Origin: a virus
Direction: 5' to 3' (one strand)
Length of the DNA stretch: 23,420 nt
Virus record (IMG/VR): IMGVR_UViG_3300009128_000135
Span: 1 to 23,420 of that record
Shown: piece by piece, positions 839 through 10,393 of the stretch
Position numbering within the stretch: the first letter of the stretch is position 1
Layout: each line of letters opens with the position of its first letter
The notes under the pieces: generated by a model
The model's input: only the letters and a program-made list of their open reading frames with translations
What the model was told of the DNA's origin: nothing
The model's database searches: none
Translations under genes and position numbers: made by a program

Positions 839-930
839 GTGGGCAAGTACTACTAACCCACAGTGATAAGCTGCTGGCATGGGGGTTAATATTAATCTAT
901 CGGTTCGCATCTTATGCCAGTTAGCTTAAT
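839..930 (+). repeat. Imperfect hairpin element J0 (attC-like, first of the array)
   Basis: In the 150-base gap after the HNH gene, a small stem GTGGG 839-843 / CCCAC 857-861 is followed by a larger one. TAAGCTGCTGGCAT at 867-880 pairs with ATGCCAGTTAGCTTA at 914-928, with bulged bases and a 33-base loop. The right end carries the box GTTAGCTTAAT (920-930), which recurs in related form at 2064, 2381 and 2677. No clear left box was found here. It is GC-richer than its surroundings. Confidence 0.6.
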
Positions 931-958
931 TATATTGTTATATTTTTGGGGTAGTTTA

Positions 959-1216
959 ATGAAAACTGTAAGAGATAAAGTAATGAGATGTGTAATAAAA
1001 CATTACAGGATGTATCACACAGGAGCCACCGTTTCTGATATAGTTGAATTTGAACAAATTGACGATTACAAAGATGTTGAGCAAAATTTGAAAGAACTAA
1101 CCACTGATGGATGTGTGAGAGAAAAACATTCTGAATTATATTCTGGTGAAATAATATACTACCCAACCGAAAAGGGAATGGGTGTAGTCAAGCTAACGGA
1201 TAATAAAAGGAAATAA
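959..1216 (+). CDS. Small winged-helix-like hypothetical protein
   Basis: An 85-residue protein starting MKTVRDKVMRCV. I chose ATG 959 because GGGGTAG lies about 5-8 bases upstream; the frame is open to an earlier ATG at 914, but that one falls inside hairpin J0. The pattern of helices (residues 3-15, 22-32, 36-50) followed by a strand-like segment around GEIIYYPTEKG resembles a winged helix, and the phrase LKELTTDGCVREK fits a recognition helix plus wing. This is an inference from sequence shape only. The box GTCAAGCTAAC (1187-1197) lies inside its last codons. The next gene starts one base after the stop. Confidence 0.65.
   Translation: MKTVRDKVMRCVIKHYRMYHTGATVSDIVEFEQIDDYKDVEQNLKELTTDGCVREKHSELYSGEIIYYPTEKGMGVVKLTDNKRK
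1187..1197 (+). repeat. Array box J1 (GTCAAGCTAAC)
   Basis: The 11-base box GTCAAGCTAAC is identical to the one at 2553-2563 and one base different from 1603-1613. It lies at the 3' end of the 959-1216 gene. Here no convincing right-hand partner was found next to it; the following gene starts 20 bases on. It may be a deleted or degenerate copy of the array element. Confidence 0.5.
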
Positions 1217-1217
1217 T

Positions 1218-1409
1218 ATGAAAAAAAACTTACTATCTGCAGCTATTTGTATTAATGCAAACGGCAAGCATACTTTAATTGATTGTAGTGATGATATTTA
1301 TATTGCTAAATGTGAAAATTGTGGAGAACGATTTGTATTAGTTAGTGAGACTGCGTTTAAAAAAATAAATGTGACTCCAGTTGAAAGGAACTTAATTAAT
1401 CTTAATTAA
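1218..1409 (+). CDS. Small hypothetical protein with one CxxC pair
   Basis: A 63-residue protein with AAGGAAATAAT directly ahead of the ATG, so the start is well supported. The middle reads YIAKCENCGERFVLVSE, a single zinc-ribbon knuckle (CENC) that would need another ligand pair or a partner to bind metal; C11 and C23 lie upstream. The gene is separated by 1 base from the preceding one and probably shares its transcript. Function unknown; the knuckle suggests nucleic-acid or protein binding, as for other members of this cluster. Confidence 0.65.
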   Translation: MKKNLLSAAICINANGKHTLIDCSDDIYIAKCENCGERFVLVSETAFKKINVTPVERNLINLN

Positions 1410-1465
1410 ATGGCGGATTTTCCCGTTCTATGCAATTGTTATATTTTTGGAGTGGAGGGGTAACT

Positions 1466-1612
1466 TTGGAGAAAAATAAGTTGAATAATTTAATAGATTG
1501 TTATGAAATAGAAAAAAATAAATATACAAGAACAAGTGATGAAAATCCACGATATTTGATTAGAAAATTTATTAATGATTTAAAAAAATTACGTGATGGG
1601 AAGTCAGGCTAA
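1466..1612 (+). CDS. Small charged hypothetical protein (TTG start)
   Basis: A 48-residue protein starting with TTG (MEKNKLNNL...). GGAGGGG at 1454-1460 sits 5 bases ahead of the TTG, whereas an in-frame ATG at 1430 has no such site, so I prefer TTG 1466. It is rich in Lys, Asn and Glu and predicted helical (residues 5-18 and 28-43), with no recognisable domain. Its leader shares 16 identical bases (1435-1450) with the leader of the 959 gene (934-949). The last codons contain box J2. Confidence 0.5.
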   Translation: MEKNKLNNLIDCYEIEKNKYTRTSDENPRYLIRKFINDLKKLRDGKSG

Positions 1613-1638
1613 CTTACAAGGCTCACCGGTTTTACGGC
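1603..1638 (+). repeat. Array element J2 (short version)
   Basis: The left box GTCAGGCTAAC (1603-1613) ends the 1466 gene. The right part GGTTTTACGG followed by CGGGGAGAG aligns with the right ends of J3 (GGTTAGTTTGCGGAGGG) and J4 (GTTAATTTACGGGACGGG). The interior is only about 14 bases, so this looks like a shortened copy. CCG / CGG can form only a very small stem. Confidence 0.45.
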
Positions 1639-1651
1639 GGGGAGAGAATAA

Positions 1652-1798
1652 ATAGAAATACTGATTTTAATTAGTTTATTGGGATATAAGATAGCTGACG
1701 ATATAAAAAAAGCTAAAGAACAATTATTTGAAGATTTAAAAAAAGAATTAACAAAACAATTTGCAAAGTGGAGTGGTAAATGGCACAAGAATTATTAA
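1652..1798 (+). CDS. Possible small membrane-anchored coiled-coil protein with non-standard start
   Basis: An open frame of up to 48 codons reads as a short hydrophobic segment (ILILISLLGY) followed by an amphipathic charged helix (ADDIKKAKEQLFEDLKKELTKQ). That pattern is typical of a small membrane-anchored phage protein. The problem is the start: upstream of the hydrophobic segment there is no ATG, GTG or TTG. The codon placed correctly after GGGGAGAG is ATA at 1652, with CTG at 1661 and TTG at 1679 as alternatives. It overlaps the start of the Lar-like gene by 19 bases. It could be a weakly translated gene, one with a mutated start, or a remnant. Confidence 0.35.
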   Translation: MEILILISLLGYKIADDIKKAKEQLFEDLKKELTKQFAKWSGKWHKNY

Positions 1799-1995
1799 AC
1801 TGTCCAAATCCAAATTGTAAAAGCAAAGAAGTATTTATATCAGGTGATTTAAATTGGGCGAAAGAATTTTGGATTGAATGCGAAGATTGTGAAATGACTG
1901 GCCCAAAAGCAAAAAAACAAATTTATGCAGCAAAAGCCTGGAATTCTTTATTGCGACCTGGGGAGGAGAAGTCAAACTACCGGTGCTGCGTTTAA
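1780..1995 (+). CDS. Lar-like restriction alleviation zinc-ribbon protein
   Basis: This 71-residue protein follows the Lar/restriction-alleviation pattern: CPNPNC near the N-terminus (C8, C13), then WIECEDCEMTGPKA (C35, C38), then AAKAWN. The closing W-N after a helix is typical of the family. In Rac prophage, Lar relieves type I restriction by favouring modification; here the role is inferred from the fold. A good site (GGAGTGG) precedes ATG 1780. The C-terminal residues after LLRPGEE are encoded by box J3 and read as a run-on (KSNYRCCV), so the ancestral protein may have ended earlier. It lies in the cassette-like array with other zinc ribbons. Confidence 0.65.
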   Translation: MAQELLNCPNPNCKSKEVFISGDLNWAKEFWIECEDCEMTGPKAKKQIYAAKAWNSLLRPGEEKSNYRCCV

Positions 1996-2074
1996 GCTGC
2001 GCCGTAACTAACTAATAACTTTAAAATAACCGCACTAACCAGGCGTCAAGCTTAAAATGCTTGGTTAGTTTGCG
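1971..2074 (+). repeat. Imperfect palindromic array element J3 (attC-like)
   Basis: Left box GTCAAACTACC (1971-1981) pairs with right box GGTTAGTTTG (2063-2072) apart from one bulge. Inside, GCGTTTAAGCTGCGCC (1988-2003) is complementary to 2042-2060 with single-base bulges. Competing local stems exist: GGTGC 1982-1986 / GCGCC 1999-2003, and CCGCA+CTAACC 2030-2040 / GGTTAG..TGCGG 2063-2075. The right end overlaps the ribosome binding site of the 2087 gene. Confidence 0.65.
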
Positions 2075-2086
2075 GAGGGAGAAGCT

Positions 2087-2290
2087 ATGGGATTAACAGA
2101 TGTTGATTTAGGATATAATCTTAATGCTATATGTCCACATTGCTCTCACGAGCATCTTGATTCGTGGGAATATTACATGAATGACGGTGATGAAGGTGTA
2201 CAATTTTGTGCACACTGTGAAAAACAATTTAAGGTAGTATGTGACATAACGACTACTTACTCAACTTATAAATTAGGGCGGAGTAGTTAA
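2087..2290 (+). CDS. Small two-knuckle zinc-ribbon protein
   Basis: A 67-residue protein with two CxxC knuckles: CPHC (C16, C19, followed by SHEHLDSWEYYMNDGDE) and CAHC (C41, C44). A KQFKVVCDITTTYSTYKL tail follows, a strand-rich pattern common to small phage zinc ribbons. It probably binds one zinc ion and may contact nucleic acid or a protein partner; no function is assigned. GGAGGGAGAAGCT precedes ATG 2087. Part of this site (GG at 2074-2075) is inside hairpin J3, so translation may respond to RNA folding. The stop lies inside left box J4. Confidence 0.7.
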   Translation: MGLTDVDLGYNLNAICPHCSHEHLDSWEYYMNDGDEGVQFCAHCEKQFKVVCDITTTYSTYKLGRSS

Positions 2291-2391
2291 ACTACCGGAC
2301 AAGTGTAAGCTGTTAAAACGCTTGCACATAACTTTAAATTACCCAATGATTGACGGCGTTTTAATCAGCTTGACACGATTGTTAATTTACG
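2286..2391 (+). repeat. Imperfect palindromic array element J4 (attC-like)
   Basis: Left box GTTAAACTACC (2286-2296) and right box GTTAATTTACG (2381-2391) bracket a strong inverted repeat: 2303-2321 pairs with 2356-2376 over 19 base pairs, broken only by two single-base bulges on the right arm. A competing local hairpin pairs 2303-2310 with 2320-2327 (8 pairs, one G-T). The segment ATAACTTTAAATTACC (2328-2343) in the loop also occurs in J3 at 2015-2031 with small changes. Confidence 0.7.
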
Positions 2392-2406
2392 GGACGGGAG
2401 ATTGAT

Positions 2407-2562
2407 ATGTTATTAACTTTATTGTTTATAGCAAATATAATTTTTGCTATTGTGCCACCTTACGACTTTCACAATGTAATAAATGCATTTGCTGCTGGTT
2501 TTGTTGGTTATGCTTTAATGGAAAAAATATATGACAAATGGGAAGAGCGGCAGTCAAGCTAA
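2407..2562 (+). CDS. Small single-pass or two-segment membrane protein
   Basis: A 51-residue protein: residues 1-18 are hydrophobic (MLLTLLFIANIIFAIVPP), a second hydrophobic stretch (VINAFAAGFVGYALM) spans about 24-38, and the tail is charged (EKIYDKWEERQSS). GGGAGATTGAT precedes ATG 2407. Both hydrophobic stretches are followed by polar turns, so one or two membrane segments are possible. Its last codons are left box J5. Small membrane proteins of early phage regions often act on the host envelope or on superinfection, but nothing here identifies the role. Confidence 0.6.
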   Translation: MLLTLLFIANIIFAIVPPYDFHNVINAFAAGFVGYALMEKIYDKWEERQSS

Positions 2563-2686
2563 CTTTTACATCACTTGCGCCGACTAAAACGAAAGAACTT
2601 AAATATGAAAAATAAATCTGATAAAACCAACAATATTCAAAAATGCGCTGACGATGATGCGTCAAGTGCATGTATTGTTAGCTGGC
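2553..2686 (+). repeat. Imperfect palindromic array element J5 (attC-like)
   Basis: Left arm 2553-2580 begins with GTCAAGCTAAC. Right arm 2659-2686 ends with GTTAGCTGGC. The arms are complementary in blocks: AGCTAAC with GTTAGCT, TACAT with ATGTA, CACTTG with CAAGTG, CGC with GCG, separated by small bulges. The loop of 78 bases and the right arm lie inside the frame of the next gene. A local stem TGACG 2649-2653 / CGTCA 2660-2664 can also form. Confidence 0.6.
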
Positions 2687-3035: not shown

Positions 3036-3093
3036 AATAAAATATGAAATAATGCGATTAAACAGAAAAGAGAAAAATGAAGATACATTGTAA
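2968..3093 (+). CDS. Small single-pass membrane protein
   Basis: A 41-residue protein with TTGGAGAAAAT ahead of ATG 2968. After a short polar start (MINFIANNLYE) comes a hydrophobic segment, CSLLLVLWFCCLI (residues 12-24), then a basic tail (KYEIMRLNRKEKNEDTL). That gives one membrane helix with the C-terminus probably cytoplasmic by charge. It overlaps the next gene by 17 bases. The right arm of an inverted repeat falls inside the membrane-segment codons. No family recognised. Confidence 0.55.
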   Translation: MINFIANNLYECSLLLVLWFCCLIKYEIMRLNRKEKNEDTL

Positions 3094-3547
3094 ATCAGAA
3101 AATTTATTTCATTCAATTGTTTATGCAAATGAACAAGATGAATTTAGAAAGAAATATTTTTCTGGCAATAAAACATTTAATTCAATGCCAATAATATTGG
3201 TTTCTCTTTATGACGAAAAGACATTAACTCAATTGGGAACTTGTTGGCGTGATTGGTCAATAGCAGCTAAATTTCTTTATACGGATAAAGAAACGATTTA
3301 TTATATGTTATTAAAAGCACCAGAGTTTAAAGAAATTTGGCTTGAAGAAAGCATAATTGGTAAAAGCAAAAAAAAGACATATAGATTTTGTACATTATCT
3401 GGGTTATCAAAAGAAAAAACAGCAGATTTGATAACTCGTTATAGAGATTATTTGCAAGAAATAATTAATAAAGAACACGGAGAATATATACCGATTAACT
3501 GGTCAAAAAAAGAGAATATTAACAAACCTGATGTCGAAAAATGTTAA
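3077..3547 (+). CDS. Hypothetical protein
   Basis: A 156-residue soluble protein of unknown function. The first part (residues 1-40) includes NEQDEFRKKYFSGNKTFNSMPI; the middle is mixed (GTCWRDWSIAAKFLYTDKETIYYMLLKAPEFKEIW); the last third is helical and charged (LSGLSKEKTADLITRYRDYLQEII). The phrase with IAAKFLYTDKETIYYMLLK could be a helix-turn-helix-like unit in which a residue ladder packs against the next helix, but this is only a shape impression. GAGAAAA precedes ATG 3077. It overlaps both neighbours, so it belongs to a run of coupled early genes. Confidence 0.6.
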   Translation: MKIHCKSENLFHSIVYANEQDEFRKKYFSGNKTFNSMPIILVSLYDEKTLTQLGTCWRDWSIAAKFLYTDKETIYYMLLKAPEFKEIWLEESIIGKSKKKTYRFCTLSGLSKEKTADLITRYRDYLQEIINKEHGEYIPINWSKKENINKPDVEKC

Positions 3548-4672: not shown

Positions 4673-5158
4673 ATGGAATTAAATAAAGCTCAAAAAATAG
4701 CAGATAAAGTTCTTAACGAATTAAAACCGCATTGTGAAAGAATTGAAATAGCCGGAAGTATCCGCAGACAAAAATCAGATGTCAAGGATATTGAAATAGT
4801 TGCTATCCCAAAGCCTTATGATGTTGGCTTATTTGAGTCGGGAATTGCAACTGTAGTTAATAAATGGAAAAAGATAAAAGGCGAACTTCCATGCAAATAT
4901 ATGCAAAGAGTTTTACCGGAAGGAATTAATTTAGATTTATTTTTTGCTACCGAAGATAACTGGGGGGTAATATTTGCAATTAGAACCGGCAGCGCCGAGT
5001 TTTCGCATAAAGTTTTAGCTGTAGGTTGGTCGAAATTAGGTTACAAATCAGAAAATGGGATTTTAATTAAAGATGGTCAAAAATATTACATTCATGAAGA
5101 AATAGATTTGTTTAATTTATTGAATTTAGATTATGTTTATCCTGAGGATAGAGTATGA
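4673..5158 (+). CDS. Family X DNA polymerase-like nucleotidyltransferase
   Basis: This 161-residue protein carries the Pol beta-type catalytic motif: AGSIRRQKSDVKDIEIVAIP (residues 27-46, GS 28-29, RR 31-32, carboxylates D39 and E41), with the third acidic residue at D88 in INLDLFFA. The C-terminal part (GVIFAIRTGSAEFSHKVLAVGWSKLGY, then IHEEIDLFNLL) matches the remainder of the palm and a thumb-like region of bacterial and phage Pol X proteins. The 8-kDa and helix-hairpin-helix DNA-binding domains of full-length Pol X are absent. It may fill gaps or add nucleotides during repair or replication; activity is unproven. An ATGA overlap couples it to the next gene. Confidence 0.85.
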   Translation: MELNKAQKIADKVLNELKPHCERIEIAGSIRRQKSDVKDIEIVAIPKPYDVGLFESGIATVVNKWKKIKGELPCKYMQRVLPEGINLDLFFATEDNWGVIFAIRTGSAEFSHKVLAVGWSKLGYKSENGILIKDGQKYYIHEEIDLFNLLNLDYVYPEDRV

Positions 5159-5271
5159 TTTCAACTGAAAGGTTATATCGCGTAAAATGTCAACATTGTG
5201 AAAGAAAGTTTATTATTACAGATGAACCAGATAAACTATGGTGTCCATTTTGCAGAAGAAAAATAATTTAA
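5155..5271 (+). CDS. Small zinc-ribbon protein
   Basis: A 38-residue protein with two knuckles, CQHC (C12, C15) and CPFC (C30, C33), separated by RKFIITDEPDKLW. That makes a minimal zinc ribbon. It begins at an ATGA overlap with the Pol X gene and is the last gene before a terminator, so it ends this operon. Role unknown; coupling to Pol X suggests but does not show a shared job in DNA metabolism. Confidence 0.65.
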   Translation: MISTERLYRVKCQHCERKFIITDEPDKLWCPFCRRKII

Positions 5272-5300
5272 CTCATTTCTCTCCTTAAGTTAGTGAGTGA

Positions 5301-5331
5301 AGCCCTGGCTTTGATTAGTCGGGGTTTTTTT
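5301..5331 (+). terminator. Rho-independent terminator
   Basis: AGCCCTG (5301-5307) pairs with CGGGGTT (5320-5326), including two G-T pairs, around a 12-base loop, and runs into seven or more T. It follows the last gene of the first operon and precedes a gene-free stretch with a promoter. Confidence 0.75.
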
Positions 5332-5364
5332 AATGGTATTTAATTAACTCAAAAATAAGTTATT

Positions 5365-5474
5365 AATAAACAATAGTTTAACCATGCTAATATGGCTTAA
5401 TAAAAACAATAGTTTATAATCAGTTTTATATGCAAAAAATTAAAAACGAGCTATTCAATAAAAACAATAGTTTA
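5365..5474 (+). repeat. Three direct repeats upstream of a promoter
   Basis: The 18-mer AATAAAAACAATAGTTTA occurs at 5399-5416 and 5457-5474, and a version lacking two A at 5365-5380. The shared core is ACAATAGTTTA. Offsets between cores are 36 and 58 bases, so the spacing is not a regular CRISPR-like one. The stretch 5272-5568 has no gene; it holds the terminator, these repeats, a small inverted repeat CCAT..ATGG (5393-5396 region) and the promoter. Confidence 0.75.
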
Positions 5475-5500
5475 GCAGTACAAAAAAAGTTAAAAAGTGC

Positions 5501-5529
5501 TTGACTTTTACAATAAAAAGTATTATATT
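5501..5529 (+). promoter_or_regulatory. Sigma-70-type promoter
   Basis: TTGACT at 5501-5506 and TATATT at 5524-5529 are 17 bases apart, close to the consensus. Transcription would start near 5536 and lead into the gene at 5569, giving a leader of about 30 bases with a strong AAGGAGAGAG site. The third direct repeat ends 26 bases upstream of the -35 box, a place where activators or repressors often bind. Confidence 0.7.
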
Positions 5530-5568
5530 TATATTGTAATTAATGACAAACTAAATAAGGAGAGAGTC

Positions 5569-5943
5569 ATGAGAGAAGAAAAACAATACTGCTGCGAATG
5601 CGGCGAAAAGTTTGATACGTTTGAAATGGAATCCGTTGAATTTGTAAGTACAGTTGAATGGATGTGTTTTGAATGTTACAAAGCAAAAGTAATGAATGAA
5701 ATTAAAAAAACTGCTGGCAAAATTTTCTTTGTTGAATTTGTCAAAAAAGACGGTTCAATCAGAAAAATGCTGGCACGTACCGGAGTAAAAAAAGGTATTA
5801 ATGGCAATGGTCATTCACTCAAAGAAGAAACAAAGAATCATGTTATTCGAGTTTATGACATGATGAAACAAGCCTGGAGAACTATTACTTATGATAAAGT
5901 AATCCGGTTTTCTGGCAATAAGATAGCTTTTGAACTTAACTAA
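5569..5943 (+). CDS. Zinc-knuckle plus SH3-like barrel hypothetical protein
   Basis: A 124-residue protein with AAGGAGAGAG just before ATG 5569; the in-frame TTG at 5497 would lie inside the promoter and is not used. The N-terminus has CCECGEKF (C8, C9, C11) and CFEC (C33, C36), a zinc-ribbon pattern. From residue 50 the sequence (GKIFFVEFVKKDGSIRKMLARTGVKK ... HVIRVYDMMKQAWRTITYDKVIRFSGNKIAFEL) follows the layout of a small phage beta-barrel protein, in which an ITYDKV strand precedes the last turn. It is the first gene of the second operon, so probably early and well expressed. Function not known. Confidence 0.7.
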   Translation: MREEKQYCCECGEKFDTFEMESVEFVSTVEWMCFECYKAKVMNEIKKTAGKIFFVEFVKKDGSIRKMLARTGVKKGINGNGHSLKEETKNHVIRVYDMMKQAWRTITYDKVIRFSGNKIAFELN

Positions 5944-5954
5944 AGGAGCATAGA

Positions 5955-6158
5955 ATGACAAATTTAACACATCCGAGATTTGTAAAACCAAATAATGATA
6001 ATTTGGTTAGATTAGCAGCAAATGCAACTTTAATTTATAATGGTCAAGGGAGATATTATGTTTCAGATCAAAATGCTTATAATCAGTTCAGATCTGAATT
6101 AAATCGGTTATCAAAATTAGAAACTGAAATTCATAAAACAATTATTCAATCTGTTTAA
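5955..6158 (+). CDS. Small hypothetical protein
   Basis: A 67-residue protein with AAAGGAGCATAGA before its ATG. The centre reads LVRLAANATLIYNGQGRYYVSDQNAYNQFRSELNRLSKLETEIHK: a strand pair followed by a long helix. No motif is recognised. It is 11 bases after the preceding stop and on the same transcript. Confidence 0.6.
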   Translation: MTNLTHPRFVKPNNDNLVRLAANATLIYNGQGRYYVSDQNAYNQFRSELNRLSKLETEIHKTIIQSV

Positions 6159-6174
6159 CTAACTTTCAGCGTTT

Positions 6175-6199
6175 GGCAGTATCGCTTTGAATAACTGCC
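6175..6199 (+). terminator. Weak hairpin, possible attenuator
   Basis: GGCAGT (6175-6180) pairs with ACTGCC (6194-6199) around a 13-base loop and is followed by TAATTTTAATTT rather than a pure T run. It lies in the 66-base gap between two small genes. It may be a partial terminator, an mRNA-stabilising stem or a processing site. Confidence 0.4.
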
Positions 6200-6224
6200 T
6201 AATTTTAATTTAAGGAGATTAAAA

Positions 6225-6398
6225 ATGAAAATAATTAATTATAATAATCAGAAAATTGAAATTAAGACTTATAATGATAATACAATTATGTGGTGTTCAC
6301 ATTGGGAATTAGTTCCTTCAATGGCTGAAGATGGAATTTTGGGAAGCAGATTTTATCAAGGACTTTGGGCACATACAGAATATTTTATTAAAAAATAG
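6225..6398 (+). CDS. Small hypothetical protein
   Basis: A 57-residue protein starting at ATG 6225 behind TAAGGAGATTAAAA. It reads as two strands (IINYNNQKIEIKTYNDNTIMWCSHWELVP) followed by MAEDGILGSRFYQGLWAHTEYFIKK. It is rich in aromatic residues and has one cysteine. No family recognised. It ends in TAG. The frame that overlaps its end on the same strand from 6331 is only the upstream extension of the next gene. Confidence 0.55.
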   Translation: MKIINYNNQKIEIKTYNDNTIMWCSHWELVPSMAEDGILGSRFYQGLWAHTEYFIKK

Positions 6399-6423
6399 CA
6401 TATTTAAAAACAGGAGTTTTAAA

Positions 6424-6630
6424 ATGGATAATAAATTATACGAAGAAGAAAAAAAAGAATCTCGACAATTAATTGAACATATTTTAGATGAATGTAATCT
6501 CCAAGATTTAAGAACTATCTATGATATATTAATTGAAGAAGGTTATATGCATGAAACATATTATCAAAATAAAGAAGCCGATAAAATTAATAAAAATTAT
6601 GAATCTTATAAACAATTAAATTGGAGTTAA
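6424..6630 (+). CDS. Small helical hypothetical protein
   Basis: A 68-residue protein with CAGGAGTTTTAAA ahead of ATG 6424. It is predicted all-helical and acidic: KLYEEEKKESRQLIEHILDECNLQDLRTIYDILIEEGYMHETYYQNKEADKINKNYESYKQL. The upstream in-frame start at 6331 lies inside the previous gene and lacks a binding site. No motif recognised. Confidence 0.6.
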   Translation: MDNKLYEEEKKESRQLIEHILDECNLQDLRTIYDILIEEGYMHETYYQNKEADKINKNYESYKQLNWS

Positions 6631-6632
6631 TA

Positions 6633-6782
6633 ATGAAAAACTTTACATTTTATTTAGATCCAGAAACAATCGAAAAAATGAAAAAACAAATCAAGCAATC
6701 GCATCCCAAATTTCGCAGTCAGGCTCACTTTGTAGAGACTGCAATTTATGAACTTATTGAAAAGGAGAAAAAGAATGGATGA
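6633..6782 (+). CDS. Ribbon-helix-helix-like DNA-binding protein
   Basis: A 49-residue protein with the pattern of a ribbon-helix-helix repressor: a short strand (KNFTFYLD, residues 2-9), helix A (PETIEKMKKQIKQ), a turn (SHPKFRSQ), and helix B (AHFVETAIYELIEKEKK). Such proteins act as dimers whose strands enter the DNA major groove. A GGAG site overlaps the end of the previous gene (TTGGAGTTAATAATG). It is a candidate regulator of this operon, possibly acting on the direct repeats at 5365-5474, but that link is a guess. Confidence 0.6.
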   Translation: MKNFTFYLDPETIEKMKKQIKQSHPKFRSQAHFVETAIYELIEKEKKNG

Positions 6783-6939
6783 TAAAATTGAAATGTTGGC
6801 AAAAAAATTAACTCAATATCAAATGGATTTGCTATGTAGTATTTGCAATTTTCCACGTTCGTATACTTTTCAACAGAGAATAGCAATATTAAAAAATATC
6901 CAAAAAAGTTGTAACTTAATTGATGAATTTGGTAACTAA
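6775..6939 (+). CDS. Small hypothetical protein
   Basis: A 54-residue protein overlapping the previous gene by 8 bases, with AAAAGGAGAAAAAG before ATG 6775. It is mostly helical (IEMLAKKLTQYQMDLLCSI, then FQQRIAILKNIQKSCNLIDEFG). No motif recognised. The tight overlap with the ribbon-helix-helix gene suggests co-translation. Confidence 0.55.
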   Translation: MDDKIEMLAKKLTQYQMDLLCSICNFPRSYTFQQRIAILKNIQKSCNLIDEFGN

Positions 6940-6958
6940 TTAATTTAAGGAGAGAGTT

Positions 6959-7126
6959 ATGAAACGAGAATTAATTCCAATGACAAATGACGAGATGCGA
7001 TACAAAGCACCGTCAATCTTTGCAGAAGCACCGAAACATGATGTTTCAAATCGTTATCAGTTTGTACCAACTGTTGATATGATTCAATTGTTGAATCGTG
7101 AAGGCTGGTTGGTTCATGAAGTATAA
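6959..7126 (+). CDS. N-terminal part of a DUF932-type protein, cut by an in-frame TAA
   Basis: A 55-residue frame with a strong AAGGAGAGAG before ATG 6959. It reads MKRELIPMTNDEMRYKAPSI...RYQFVPTVDMIQLLNREGW, which is the normal N-terminus of phage/plasmid DUF932 proteins, then stops at TAA 7124-7126. The frame continues without shift on the far side as ESRANKSENYGFTKHIVRM, the expected next block of the family (an RxR and KH segment). A CAA-to-TAA change would explain it. Either the gene is broken, or the codon is read through. Confidence 0.75.
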   Translation: MKRELIPMTNDEMRYKAPSIFAEAPKHDVSNRYQFVPTVDMIQLLNREGWLVHEV

Positions 7127-7180
7127 GAATCCAGGGCTAACAAATCAGAAAATTATGGATTTACAAAGCACATTGTAAGA

Positions 7181-7771
7181 ATGTTTCTACCTGAATTAAT
7201 TTTGAACGGCGAAACAATCGAATCCGTGATTATTAATTCACATAATCGAACATCAACTTATCAAATGATGATGGGAGTTTATAGAATGATTTGTGAAAAC
7301 GGGATGATTGTAGGTGATACATTTAATCAGATTTCAATCAAGCATATCGGAGATCAAGCAGAACAGATTGTCAATGCAAGTTATCAAGTTATTGAATCGG
7401 CTCCGCTCGTTGCTGATAATATTTCAGTAATGAAAGACATTGAACTTGATAATAACGAGCAAAAATTACTTGCTGAAAGTGTTTTAATGATCGAACATGA
7501 TCAGGCAGAACTTGAAACAATGAAGGTTAATCCAGAATCATTATTGCGGTCAAGGCGTTGGGAAGATAGACTAGATACAAGTCTATGGACTACGTTTAAC
7601 AAAGTGCAAGAAAATTACATGAAAGGAAATTTCAAATTTAGCAAGGTCGATGATAACGGAAGAGAACATCGCCGGAAATCAAGACAGATAAAAAACATTG
7701 ACAGAGATATTAAATTCAATCGAGCACTTTGGCATTTAACCGAAACGATGAAAAACCTAAAAGTAAAATAA
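7181..7771 (+). CDS. Remainder of the DUF932-type phage protein
   Basis: The same frame as 6959-7126 continues from 7127 to 7771; the first ATG is 7181, without a ribosome binding site. Recognisable family features are FLPELILNGETIESVIINSHNRTSTYQMMMGVYRMICENGMIVGD, where the SHNR..S....GVYRMICENGM phrase is the core of DUF932. A long helical region and a basic tail (NGREHRRKSRQIKNI) follow. The whole gene would be 270 residues. The function of DUF932 proteins is unknown; they are common in phages and plasmids. As written, the second part should be poorly translated unless the stop is bypassed. Confidence 0.7.
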   Translation: MFLPELILNGETIESVIINSHNRTSTYQMMMGVYRMICENGMIVGDTFNQISIKHIGDQAEQIVNASYQVIESAPLVADNISVMKDIELDNNEQKLLAESVLMIEHDQAELETMKVNPESLLRSRRWEDRLDTSLWTTFNKVQENYMKGNFKFSKVDDNGREHRRKSRQIKNIDRDIKFNRALWHLTETMKNLKVK

Positions 7772-7789
7772 AATATCTCTCTTTATCAC

Positions 7790-7823
7790 AAAGCCTTGTC
7801 ATTAATTTGGCAAGGCTTTTTTT
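7790..7823 (+). terminator. Rho-independent terminator
   Basis: AAAGCCTTG (7790-7798) pairs perfectly with CAAGGCTTT (7811-7819) around a 12-base loop and runs into a T tract ending at 7823. It closes the second small-gene operon ahead of the packaging genes. Confidence 0.85.
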
Positions 7824-7830
7824 ATGGAAC

Positions 7831-7846
7831 TTTTATAAATTAAATA
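7831..7846 (+). promoter_or_regulatory. Possible promoter element shared with 16418-16433
   Basis: The 16-mer TTTTATAAATTAAATA lies between a terminator and the first gene of the packaging operon and recurs exactly before the scaffold/capsid genes at 16418-16433. TATAAA could serve as a -10 box; no good -35 box is seen. In so AT-rich a sequence the match alone is weak. Confidence 0.35.
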
Positions 7847-7852
7847 TGTTAA

Positions 7853-8179
7853 ATGATTATGAAATTAAAAGATGAAAAATGTGGATGTGGAAAACCAGCC
7901 AAATATTTAGGTCAAGATGGTAATGGCGCTTGTAATAAATATGGACGGTGTCCAACTTATGAAGAACTGCAAGTTCAGGAAAGATTAATAAAAAATATTT
8001 GCGATGAAATAGAATGCAAATGTGAACCCCTTGGATTAGGGTTAGTTATGAAGGCGGAGCATTTATGTAAGACAATGCGCGGTATTAAAAAAAAAGGATA
8101 TATGAAAACGTCTGATTTAAGGGGAGTTTTTAGAAAACACGAAGTAAGACAAGAATTTTTTAGTTTAATTAACATTTAG
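7853..8179 (+). CDS. Cysteine-rich hypothetical protein
   Basis: A 108-residue protein (or 106 from ATG 7859). The N-terminus carries CGCGKPAKYLGQDGNGACNKYGRCPTYEEL, a phage zinc-binding unit with Cys at residues 10, 12, 27 and 33, followed by a helical linker. The C-terminus reads LCKTMRGIKKKGYMKTSDLRGVFRKHEVRQEFFSLINI. It is the first gene after the terminator at 7790-7823 and precedes the small terminase, so it may belong to the packaging operon. Function unknown. Confidence 0.6.
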   Translation: MIMKLKDEKCGCGKPAKYLGQDGNGACNKYGRCPTYEELQVQERLIKNICDEIECKCEPLGLGLVMKAEHLCKTMRGIKKKGYMKTSDLRGVFRKHEVRQEFFSLINI

Positions 8180-8204
8180 TTACAAATAATAGAAGAATTT
8201 TAAT

Positions 8205-8258
8205 ATGTCAGATCAAAAACAAAGTAAATTAACCAAGTTTGAGAAGTTTAAGAAATAG
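8205..8258 (+). CDS. Possible 17-residue leader peptide
   Basis: An ATG at 8205 opens a 17-codon frame (MSDQKQSKLTKFEKFKK) ended by TAG at 8256-8258, six bases before the small terminase ATG. AGAAGAATTTTAAT is a weak binding site. It could be a translated leader that couples to the terminase gene, which itself lacks a good site, or a chance frame in the 84-base gap. Confidence 0.25.
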   Translation: MSDQKQSKLTKFEKFKK

Positions 8259-8263
8259 TAGAT

Positions 8264-8695
8264 ATGCAGCAAGGGAAAAAAATAGATTACAAAAAAGAAA
8301 CTGTTTTAGAAGCAATTAAAAACAGTCATGGAATTATATTGTCAGTTGCCAATAATTTAAAATGTAATTGGGCAACTGCCAGAACATATATTAACAACTG
8401 GAAAGAAACAAAACAAGCTTTAGAAGATGAAAAAGAAACTTTCGGCGATTTTGTAGAATCAAAGGCAATGGAATGTGTTCAAAATAACAGTGAACAAATG
8501 ATTAGATTCTATCTTACAACACTTTTTAAAGATCGAGGATTTACTGAAAAGAAAGAACTTGAACATACTGGCAAAGATGGAGGCCCAATACAATCCGAAA
8601 ATGTAGATAAATTAGAAAAGATTATTGAAAATATGTCAGACGAAGATCGTAAAACATTCTTTGAAATATATGAACGCAGCAACGGAATTAAATAA
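8264..8695 (+). CDS. terS: Terminase small subunit
   Basis: A 143-residue protein with the usual small-terminase layout. The N-terminal helix-turn-helix (residues 9-45: KETVLEAIKNSHGIILSVANNLKCNWATARTYINNW) recognises phage DNA. The central helical part (FGDFVESKAMECVQNNSEQMIRFYLTTLFKDRGFTEKKELEHTGKDGG) forms the oligomer, and an acidic tail probably contacts the large subunit. It lies just upstream of the large terminase, as expected, with one small gene between. The ATG at 8264 lacks a strong binding site; coupling to the leader at 8205 would help. Confidence 0.8.
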   Translation: MQQGKKIDYKKETVLEAIKNSHGIILSVANNLKCNWATARTYINNWKETKQALEDEKETFGDFVESKAMECVQNNSEQMIRFYLTTLFKDRGFTEKKELEHTGKDGGPIQSENVDKLEKIIENMSDEDRKTFFEIYERSNGIK

Positions 8696-8865
8696 TGAAA
8701 ATATGTCATGTTGAAATAGATAGTTATTTAATGAAAGCTATAAAAGAAACTGGACAATTTAGATGTTATTGTGGTAGTATTACAGAAATAAGATTTTATA
8801 AAAATAGAGTATGTATGGAAATACATCAAAATGAATTAAAAAAAATATCAAATGGAATTAAGTGA
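8695..8865 (+). CDS. Small hypothetical protein with cysteines
   Basis: A 56-residue protein starting at a TAATG junction with the small terminase gene and overlapping the large terminase start by 14 bases. It holds CYC (C24, C26) and lone cysteines at 4 and 40; strands alternate with short helices (GQFRCYCGSITEIRFYKNRVCMEIHQNELKKI). No family is recognised. The overlaps on both sides support real translation. Confidence 0.5.
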   Translation: MKICHVEIDSYLMKAIKETGQFRCYCGSITEIRFYKNRVCMEIHQNELKKISNGIK

Positions 8866-10393
8866 ATTTTCAAGACAGGAATTAGATTTAGTTAAATGCA
8901 GAATTGATCCTGTTTTTTTTATTACGAGATATTGTTTTTCAATTGATAATGAAGATAAAAAAATAAAATTAATTCCAAATTATGATTATGTTGTAGATTT
9001 AATAAAAGAGATACATGCAGAAAAAGATAATTTAATAGAAAAATCCAGGCGTATGCTTGTATCTTGGATTTCACAAGCATATAATGTTTGGGGGTTATTA
9101 TTTGAAAATGGTTATCTTGCTTTAAATTTAAGCAGAAACGAAAGCCTTGTAGATGACCGTACAGCTGATTCATTATTTGGTAAAATGCGATTTGTATTTG
9201 ATAGGCTTCCAGACTGGATGGTTAAAGAACAATTTGGAGAGTATCATAATTCAGATTTTTATATCAGATATTTAAGAGCGGTAAATAAATTAAGAAACAA
9301 TTACATTAAGGGTGAATCAACTAATACAGAAGCAGGGCGTGGTGGTGGTTATAGTAAGATATTTGCCGATGAATATGGATTTGTACCAAAATCAGAAACT
9401 GTATACGCTGCTTTTTCTTCTGCTTGTAAAATAGGAAAGAACTTAATTACGACTCCACCGTGGTCAGGGAAGAAATGTTGTTTCTATCGATTAAGAAAAG
9501 ATTCTATTGAAAGCAAAAATGATTATAACTTAATTAGAGTTCATTGGTCAGAACATCCGGACCGTAATGAAGAATGGTATAAAAAAGAATGTTCTGATAA
9601 AACCAAAGATGAAATTGCTCGTGAATTAGATATTGATTGGAATGTTTCTGTTAAGGGTAGGATATTAGAACAATGGAATGCAGAACAACATAAAATTAAA
9701 TATAAATATCAACCAGAATTAAAACTTGATATAGATTTCGATTTTGGAATTGGTGAAAGTCCGGTTTCAATTGGTTATAGCCAAGACTTGCCAAGTGGAG
9801 AAACGGTATATTTTAAAGATTATGAATACGAGAAAAAAACAGTTGATCAAATAGCTCCCGAACAATTTATGGAACTTTTTAATCTTGGGGTCATTAAAGA
9901 TATAAATTTCATAACGGAATTAAATAATATAAAAGGTTTTACAGATGAGAAGATAAATGAACGCATTGGATTAGTAAAAAAATACAAAATAAAAAAATTG
10001 TTAAATTCAATACGTTGTTTTGGTGATCCGTCAGGGAAAGCAAAGGGCGCAACTGGAAAGAGTTGGATTTCAGAGTTTGAGAAATATGGGTTTCAAATTG
10101 ATTATACTTTCAATGCTAAATTAAGAGACTTGGAATATGGTCATTTGTTATTACAGAGAATGATAATGAAAAGTCAATTATTATGTACAGAGAATTGTCA
10201 TATAACAATTGATTCATTAGAGAATTATAAACGTAAAACTGATAGCGATGGAAATGTACTGGATTCAAAATTAGTGAGTGATGACTGGGCAAAGCATCGA
10301 GTTGACGGAATTCGTTATAAAGCAATTAATACAAAAAACCATGTTGATATAGATTATAAGAATTTAAAAAGTCAAATACCAGCGGGGTTGTAA
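8852..10393 (+). CDS. terL: Terminase large subunit
   Basis: A 513-residue packaging motor that pumps DNA into the prohead and cuts it. The ATPase part shows a variant Walker A at residues 63-72 (EKSRRMLVSW, with R in place of the usual GKS), Walker B at 170-174 (IFADE, D173 and E174) and a coupling motif at 199-204 (ITTPPW). The C-terminal RNase H-type nuclease shows DFDFG at 296-300, GDPSG at 391-395 and the closing HRVDGIRY near 482-489. Length and order are normal for the family. A gene for a 37-residue membrane protein follows by TAATG overlap, then the portal. Confidence 0.93.
   Translation: MELSEFSRQELDLVKCRIDPVFFITRYCFSIDNEDKKIKLIPNYDYVVDLIKEIHAEKDNLIEKSRRMLVSWISQAYNVWGLLFENGYLALNLSRNESLVDDRTADSLFGKMRFVFDRLPDWMVKEQFGEYHNSDFYIRYLRAVNKLRNNYIKGESTNTEAGRGGGYSKIFADEYGFVPKSETVYAAFSSACKIGKNLITTPPWSGKKCCFYRLRKDSIESKNDYNLIRVHWSEHPDRNEEWYKKECSDKTKDEIARELDIDWNVSVKGRILEQWNAEQHKIKYKYQPELKLDIDFDFGIGESPVSIGYSQDLPSGETVYFKDYEYEKKTVDQIAPEQFMELFNLGVIKDINFITELNNIKGFTDEKINERIGLVKKYKIKKLLNSIRCFGDPSGKAKGATGKSWISEFEKYGFQIDYTFNAKLRDLEYGHLLLQRMIMKSQLLCTENCHITIDSLENYKRKTDSDGNVLDSKLVSDDWAKHRVDGIRYKAINTKNHVDIDYKNLKSQIPAGL

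Follow-up and report, generated by a model that had tools for sequence, protein, structure and literature searches.

The window, a complete IMG/VR entry of 23,420 bases with 31% GC, probably carries a CALIN-like array of a tailed phage, in which clustered attC sites of integron type have diverged and in part decayed. Two of its six sites, S5 and S6, match the fine structure of known attC hairpins, and the polarity of the hairpins is antiparallel to that of every gene in the array (Table 1). Terminase, portal, scaffold and major head genes were identified in the record, which is a tailed-phage genome or a fragment of one and possibly incomplete. All identified phage genes read on the plus strand, and the ORF listing bore out the original prediction in placing the genes on that strand. 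The packaging genes are downstream of the hairpin array, which adjoins an HNH endonuclease gene (230–808). The window had been described as lacking an integrase; likewise, no gene for a tyrosine recombinase or integron integrase was found in cis in the 23.4-kb, possibly incomplete, record, and the array is not classed as a complete integron.

Table 1. Sites and genes of the array, with positions in the window.
Feature	Position	Strand	Description
S1	851–943	−	R″ ATATAAC (937–943), bulged stem TAAGCT-a-ACTGGCAT, R′ GTTAGTA (851–857)
Winged-helix-like gene, S1–S2 interval	959–1216	+	Weak DUF4364 match, Pfam E 2.5e-4, below curated cut-off
S2, R′ half	1187–1197	−	GTTAGCTTGAC (plus strand GTCAAGCTAAC); exact box, without hairpin partner nearby
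Small CxxC protein, between S2 halves	1218–1409	+	ORF
Small ORF ending in S3 box (TAA inside CTAAC)	1430–1612	+	ORF; no family match
S2, possible R″ half	1435–1453	−	Repeat of S1 R″ end (CCAAAAATATAACAAT)
S3	1607–1635	−	R″ GTAAAAC, R′ GTTAGCC, 15 nt between; stem-loop absent
Lar-like restriction-alleviation protein	1780–1995	+	phrog_599 6.1e-6, Pfam Lar 3.4e-5
S4	1973–2070	−	R″ AACTAAC, stem TTTAAGC-t-TG-a-CGCC, R′ damaged (GTAGTTTGAC)
Zinc-ribbon protein of phage family, stop codon in S5 box	2087–2290	+	phrog_6504 4.3e-14; tblastn matches in phages
S5	2287–2387	−	R″ AATTAAC, AATCG, TGT, bulged C, AAGCTG, bulged A, TTAAAACGC stem; R′ damaged (GTAGTTTAAC)
Small hydrophobic protein, stop codon in S6 box	2407–2562	+	ORF
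S6	2557–2683	−	R″ AGCTAAC, AATA, CAT, bulged G, CACTTG, bulged A, CGC stem; R′ GTTAGCT then TGACT

Boxes, hairpins and genes

The original prediction described small genes followed by hairpins, each bounded by a left box close to GTCARRCTAAC and a right box close to its complement. All five left boxes (1187, 1603, 1971, 2286 and 2553) were confirmed at those coordinates. Between 785 and 2700, the motif GTCARRCTAAC was present in four copies with up to one mismatch and in six copies with up to two, compared with means of 0.04 (maximum 1) and 0.70 (maximum 4), respectively, in 300 dinucleotide shuffles. Right boxes were recovered at 2064, 2381 and 2677; the sequence at 920, given as the right box of S1, proved to be part of the S1 stem, and the true end is GTTATAT at 937–943. 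With the right end at 920, the arm pairing of S1 was equalled in 132 of 500 shuffles, and those ends were rejected. GTTATAT sits in a 19-nt direct repeat, ATTGTTATATTTTTGG(G/A)GT, which recurs at 1435–1453; this copy and the one at 934–952 are 95% identical.

On the plus strand the right boxes retain GTT at all six sites. S1 and S6 have both inverted ends (R″-AAC and R′-GTT), whereas the minus-strand R′ of S4 and S5 reads GTA, so its GTT is damaged. Past the box, the minus-strand R′ extends as GTTAGYYTGACT in S2, S3 and S6; TGACT is present in S4 as well, TAACT in S5, and no extension in S1, the last site in the minus direction. No TGACT-type extension was found among the known attC sites, used below as a yardstick, that were printed with their flanks.

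Arm pairing was tested by comparing the interior of each site with 500 shuffles. Self-complementary arms between paired boxes, as predicted, were borne out for S1, S4, S5 and S6 but not for S3, which is truncated, or S2, which is unpaired. Pairing as good as the real one was obtained in none of the 500 shuffles for S5, in 1–3 for S4 (with two bulges on the minus-strand 5′ arm), in 3 for S1 using the corrected ends and in 8–9 for S6. At 1603 both boxes exist, but they are only 15 nt apart and enclose no stem. No right box was found within 200 nt of 1187; the only candidate, at 1438, lies past the gene at 1218–1409, and pairing of these two halves was unconvincing (30 of 500 shuffles). Folded as single-stranded DNA, S5 was far better than its shuffles (z −3.7 to −3.8) and S6 slightly better, and S4 favoured other folds. 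S4, S5 and S6 lie on the same strand within 711 bp, S1 has the same orientation and unrelated small genes lie between them, which is the tandem arrangement of attC sites in a CALIN.

The boxes hold the stop codons of three array genes. The genes between the sites are mutually unrelated, which fits cassettes better than tandem duplication; duplication of a gene together with its hairpin was ruled out as the source on this ground. The Lar-like, zinc-ribbon and weak DUF4364 matches make the plus-strand genes credible. The Lar-like protein is plausible counter-defence cargo inside the array. An ORF at 2575–2838 spans the loop of S6, and a shorter version starting at 2719, past the box, may be the real gene.

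Comparison with known attC sites

A yardstick of known attC sites was assembled from 80 bacterial and 80 viral loci, fetched with an alignment of four IntI proteins, in which an inverted R-box scan located attC arrays. Yardstick sites consisted of R″ (7 nt), 5 nt, 3 bp, an extrahelical C or G, 6 bp, an extrahelical A and a stem, the opposite arm having a 6-nt spacer; 88 of 134 had exactly the 5- and 6-nt spacers. When aligned, they shared the boxes, a T before the first bulge, and A and G at positions 2 and 6 of the 6-bp helix; the aligned sites had been pre-selected for the bulged C/G and the bulged A, and those two positions are not independent findings. A second attC type, marked by G/A bulges and a spacer of 4 nt, was observed in virus Rctr41k and in viral contigs L158, L159 and L166. 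The scanner misses some attC types, as the published attC sites of P12002L failed to stand out.

Applied to the window, the scanner returned two strong sites, S6 (2683 to 2557) and S5 (2387 to 2290), both on the minus strand and 170 nt apart. With five context positions added, they scored 30 and 28.5, respectively. The maximum in 120 dinucleotide-shuffled windows was 27.5, with none at 28 or above and no two hits of at least 25 within 600 nt, and the best hit in a further 1.04 Mb of viral DNA reached 25. Two attC sites of Tetrasphaera phage TJE1 scored 30.5 and 26.5 on the same scanner, a pair that we assume to be among the sites tested by Qi and colleagues, in whose work TJE1 attC were integrated by IntI1 (PMC9892861). 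The context positions (T, C/G, A, G, A), unused in the first scan, are correct in both S5 and S6; by our own arithmetic, base composition alone gives this at about 0.001 per site. In S5 and S6 the pair of extrahelical bases on the R″-L″ arm, separated by about 6 bp, and the unpaired central spacer are exact; S1 and S4 show them with deviations. When S5 and S6 were aligned with eight real attC sites, 94.5% of the structure cells were paired and 14 of 20 pairs had two-sided changes, most of this covariation signal coming from the known attC; it demonstrates the fit of S5 and S6, and not that these two would prove the structure by themselves. Sliding the partner by one column lowered pairing in the same alignment to 27–37%; the loop columns 28–33 of S5 and S6, which are approximate and unpaired, were left out of the counts. 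The predicted attC-like architecture thus held in its fine structure (bulges 6 bp apart, spacer lengths, the T/A/G/A context and AAC/GTT ends) but not in its orientation, and the sequence supports S5 and S6 as putative attC-type sites, attC-like at the level of fine structure.

Covariance models and relatives

The original prediction proposed a check with attC covariance models, and here it was not upheld: two models gave 7–9 bits and did not call the sites. Model R1 gave S5 7.7 bits, and model R2 gave 8.8 bits for S5 and 7.3 for S6. Both were built from known, mostly GC-rich attC and are insensitive. This negative is weak because R1 lists only one Rctr41k site at E ≤ 1. As neither the covariance models nor the polarity of the genes identified the sites as attC, we label them attC-like and not a certified attC array.

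No relatives covering the array were found in viral contigs or annotated phages, and the array proteins used as queries had no relatives among the viral contigs. Relatives of the terminase (L001 and L002, 88%) leave the array uncovered. Queries from 4673–5158, 7181–7771 and 3077–3547 gave two loci without homology to the array and then none. The stretch at 4673–5158 encodes a PolX-like nucleotidyltransferase with relatives in L179 (70%) and in viral contig L152 (42%), the latter directly upstream of the integrase gene. An exact double-box pattern search gave no matches with a gap range of 40–70, which is too short for S4–S6. A box-plus-arm pattern matched 120 stretches, none with attC-like structure, and these were used as a negative control.

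Polarity of the sites

In known integrons, imperfections in the attC hairpin steer IntI to one strand and thereby fix the orientation of the cassette (PMC8946536). The single-base bulges of S1, S4, S5 and S6 all lie on a single arm, the 5′ one when the minus strand is read, a feature the original prediction did not remark on. It had read the sites with the genes, at the gene 3′ ends; the position of the bulges gives the attC polarity as minus, antiparallel to every gene. The genes are thus not parallel to attC as in a cassette array. In the lower-GC yardstick loci (GC to about 0.58), about 23 gaps had parallel genes and one or two had antiparallel genes; calls of gene orientation relative to attC are unreliable in the GC-rich yardstick loci. 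Read on the plus strand, the sites scored 23.5 at best (S6), and S5 was not among the best. Box integrity favours the opposite strand, with GTT kept in the right boxes of the plus strand and lost in the minus-strand R′ of S4 and S5. Minus-strand polarity is therefore shown for the hairpin structure, and any recombination may have either polarity.

One tentative and rather unlikely reading of this polarity is that the phage lineage has an attC type of its own, mirrored in polarity. Every cassette would then have the bulged, recombinogenic strand as its coding strand, with an R box extended to about 12 bp (GTTAGCTTGACT). Small early genes would be shuffled by an unseen integrase, in the reverse of the orientation known from described integrons.

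Proposed origin and alternative explanations

The sites are most likely attC-derived, and would work or once have worked through folded single-stranded DNA and an integron-type integrase acting in trans. As single-stranded DNA, each site, an imperfect inverted repeat, would fold into a hairpin in which an integron-type tyrosine recombinase is offered the R and L boxes, a pair of extrahelical bases and an unpaired spacer. Acting in trans, this recombinase may come from the host or from phage DNA that is unsequenced. Successive sites would bound small, unrelated genes that could be exchanged singly, and the array genes are probably co-transcribed from outside. We infer recognition by an integrase, past gain of the genes as cassettes and present decay.

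An improbable explanation, in our judgement, is that the hairpins act as RNA between the genes of an early phage operon, as repeated elements for processing, attenuation or translation control whose stems co-vary under selection on RNA structure and not on DNA recombination. The hairpins do lie between co-directional genes, the plus-strand right box of S3, S4 and S5 leads into a G-rich ribosome-binding stretch, and boxes are retained at S2 and S3 in the absence of recombinogenic stems. Yet no Rfam family matched, the one plus-strand terminator-like match in the region is not at any site, and nothing in an RNA role would lead one to expect extrahelical bases spaced by 6 bp, a T-[CG]-xAxxxG-A context or AAC/GTT ends at attC distances. 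We consider it still harder to credit that the sites were left behind as relics by a different mobile or dispersed hairpin element (REP-like, like the ends of IS200/IS605, or a phage-specific intergenic repeat) and resemble attC by convergence. Such elements would not be expected to match attC finely, down to the positions of the bulges, and only the ends and geometry are common to the sites, whose interiors are not one repeated sequence; several copies are nevertheless truncated, and the conserved box extension (GTTAGCTTGACT) is absent from the printed attC. Chance boxes with chance pairing in AT-rich DNA, to which the unpaired S2 and S3 and the arm pairing of S6 taken alone would lend themselves, are very improbable and already disfavoured by the shuffles, given the excess of boxes and the two high scorers on one strand, a combination seen in none of the 120 shuffled windows. 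The original prediction was confirmed in part as an observation and supported in part as an interpretation, with the divergent, partly decayed attC cluster as the probable reading.

Relation to known integrons

Only about 20 phages have been reported to carry integron components, and CALIN-like arrays have already been published for phages (PMC9892861). The array of TJE1 (PMC9892861) is alike in its R″/R′ hairpins with an unpaired spacer, two extrahelical bases and a variable loop, in the small genes between sites, in the lack of an integrase nearby and in scores like those of S5 and S6. Its attC are parallel to the genes, in contrast to the antiparallel sites described here, and the present array also differs in its AT-rich boxes, two damaged R′, some truncated sites and the failure of the attC models built here to call it. 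The phage integrons of Rctr41k, L158 and L159 resemble S6 in the 4-nt spacer and the bulged G followed by A, but they encode IntI, their attC are parallel to the genes and their structural genes differ from those of the array phage. The attC of class 1 and sedentary chromosomal integrons share the geometry of R″, 5 nt, 3 bp, extrahelical base, 6 bp, extrahelical base and stem; those integrons usually have attI and IntI in cis and genes parallel to attC, and their attC usually have an intact GTT and GC-rich conserved boxes, with no TGACT extension. A phage CALIN is therefore a kind already known, and the antiparallel polarity, AT-rich boxes and box extension mark a variant of it.

The search also recovered other phage-borne integron components. 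In virus Rctr41k (KX853513, L015), a tailed virus from a methane-oxidising enrichment, an IntI-like integrase is encoded within positions 4680–10101 and at least six attC come after it on its strand, two of which flank a methyltransferase-like gene. This is apparently a complete phage-borne integron, and it is not in the complete-integron table of PMC9892861. The IMG/VR contigs L158 and L159 each encode a terminase large subunit and a relative of IntI, together with same-strand attC that have G/A bulges and a 4-nt spacer. By tblastn, 270 IMG/VR stretches encode relatives of integron integrases, a number that may include misassigned bacterial integrons.

The array extends phage integron components to an AT-rich lineage that covariance models of common attC miss, so that counts of such arrays may be too low. 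Should the mirrored polarity prove real and the sites active, the array would offer a test of whether extrahelical bases alone set the strand used by the integrase and the reading direction of the cassette, and would point to phages swapping early genes, such as the Lar-like antirestriction gene, by integron chemistry.
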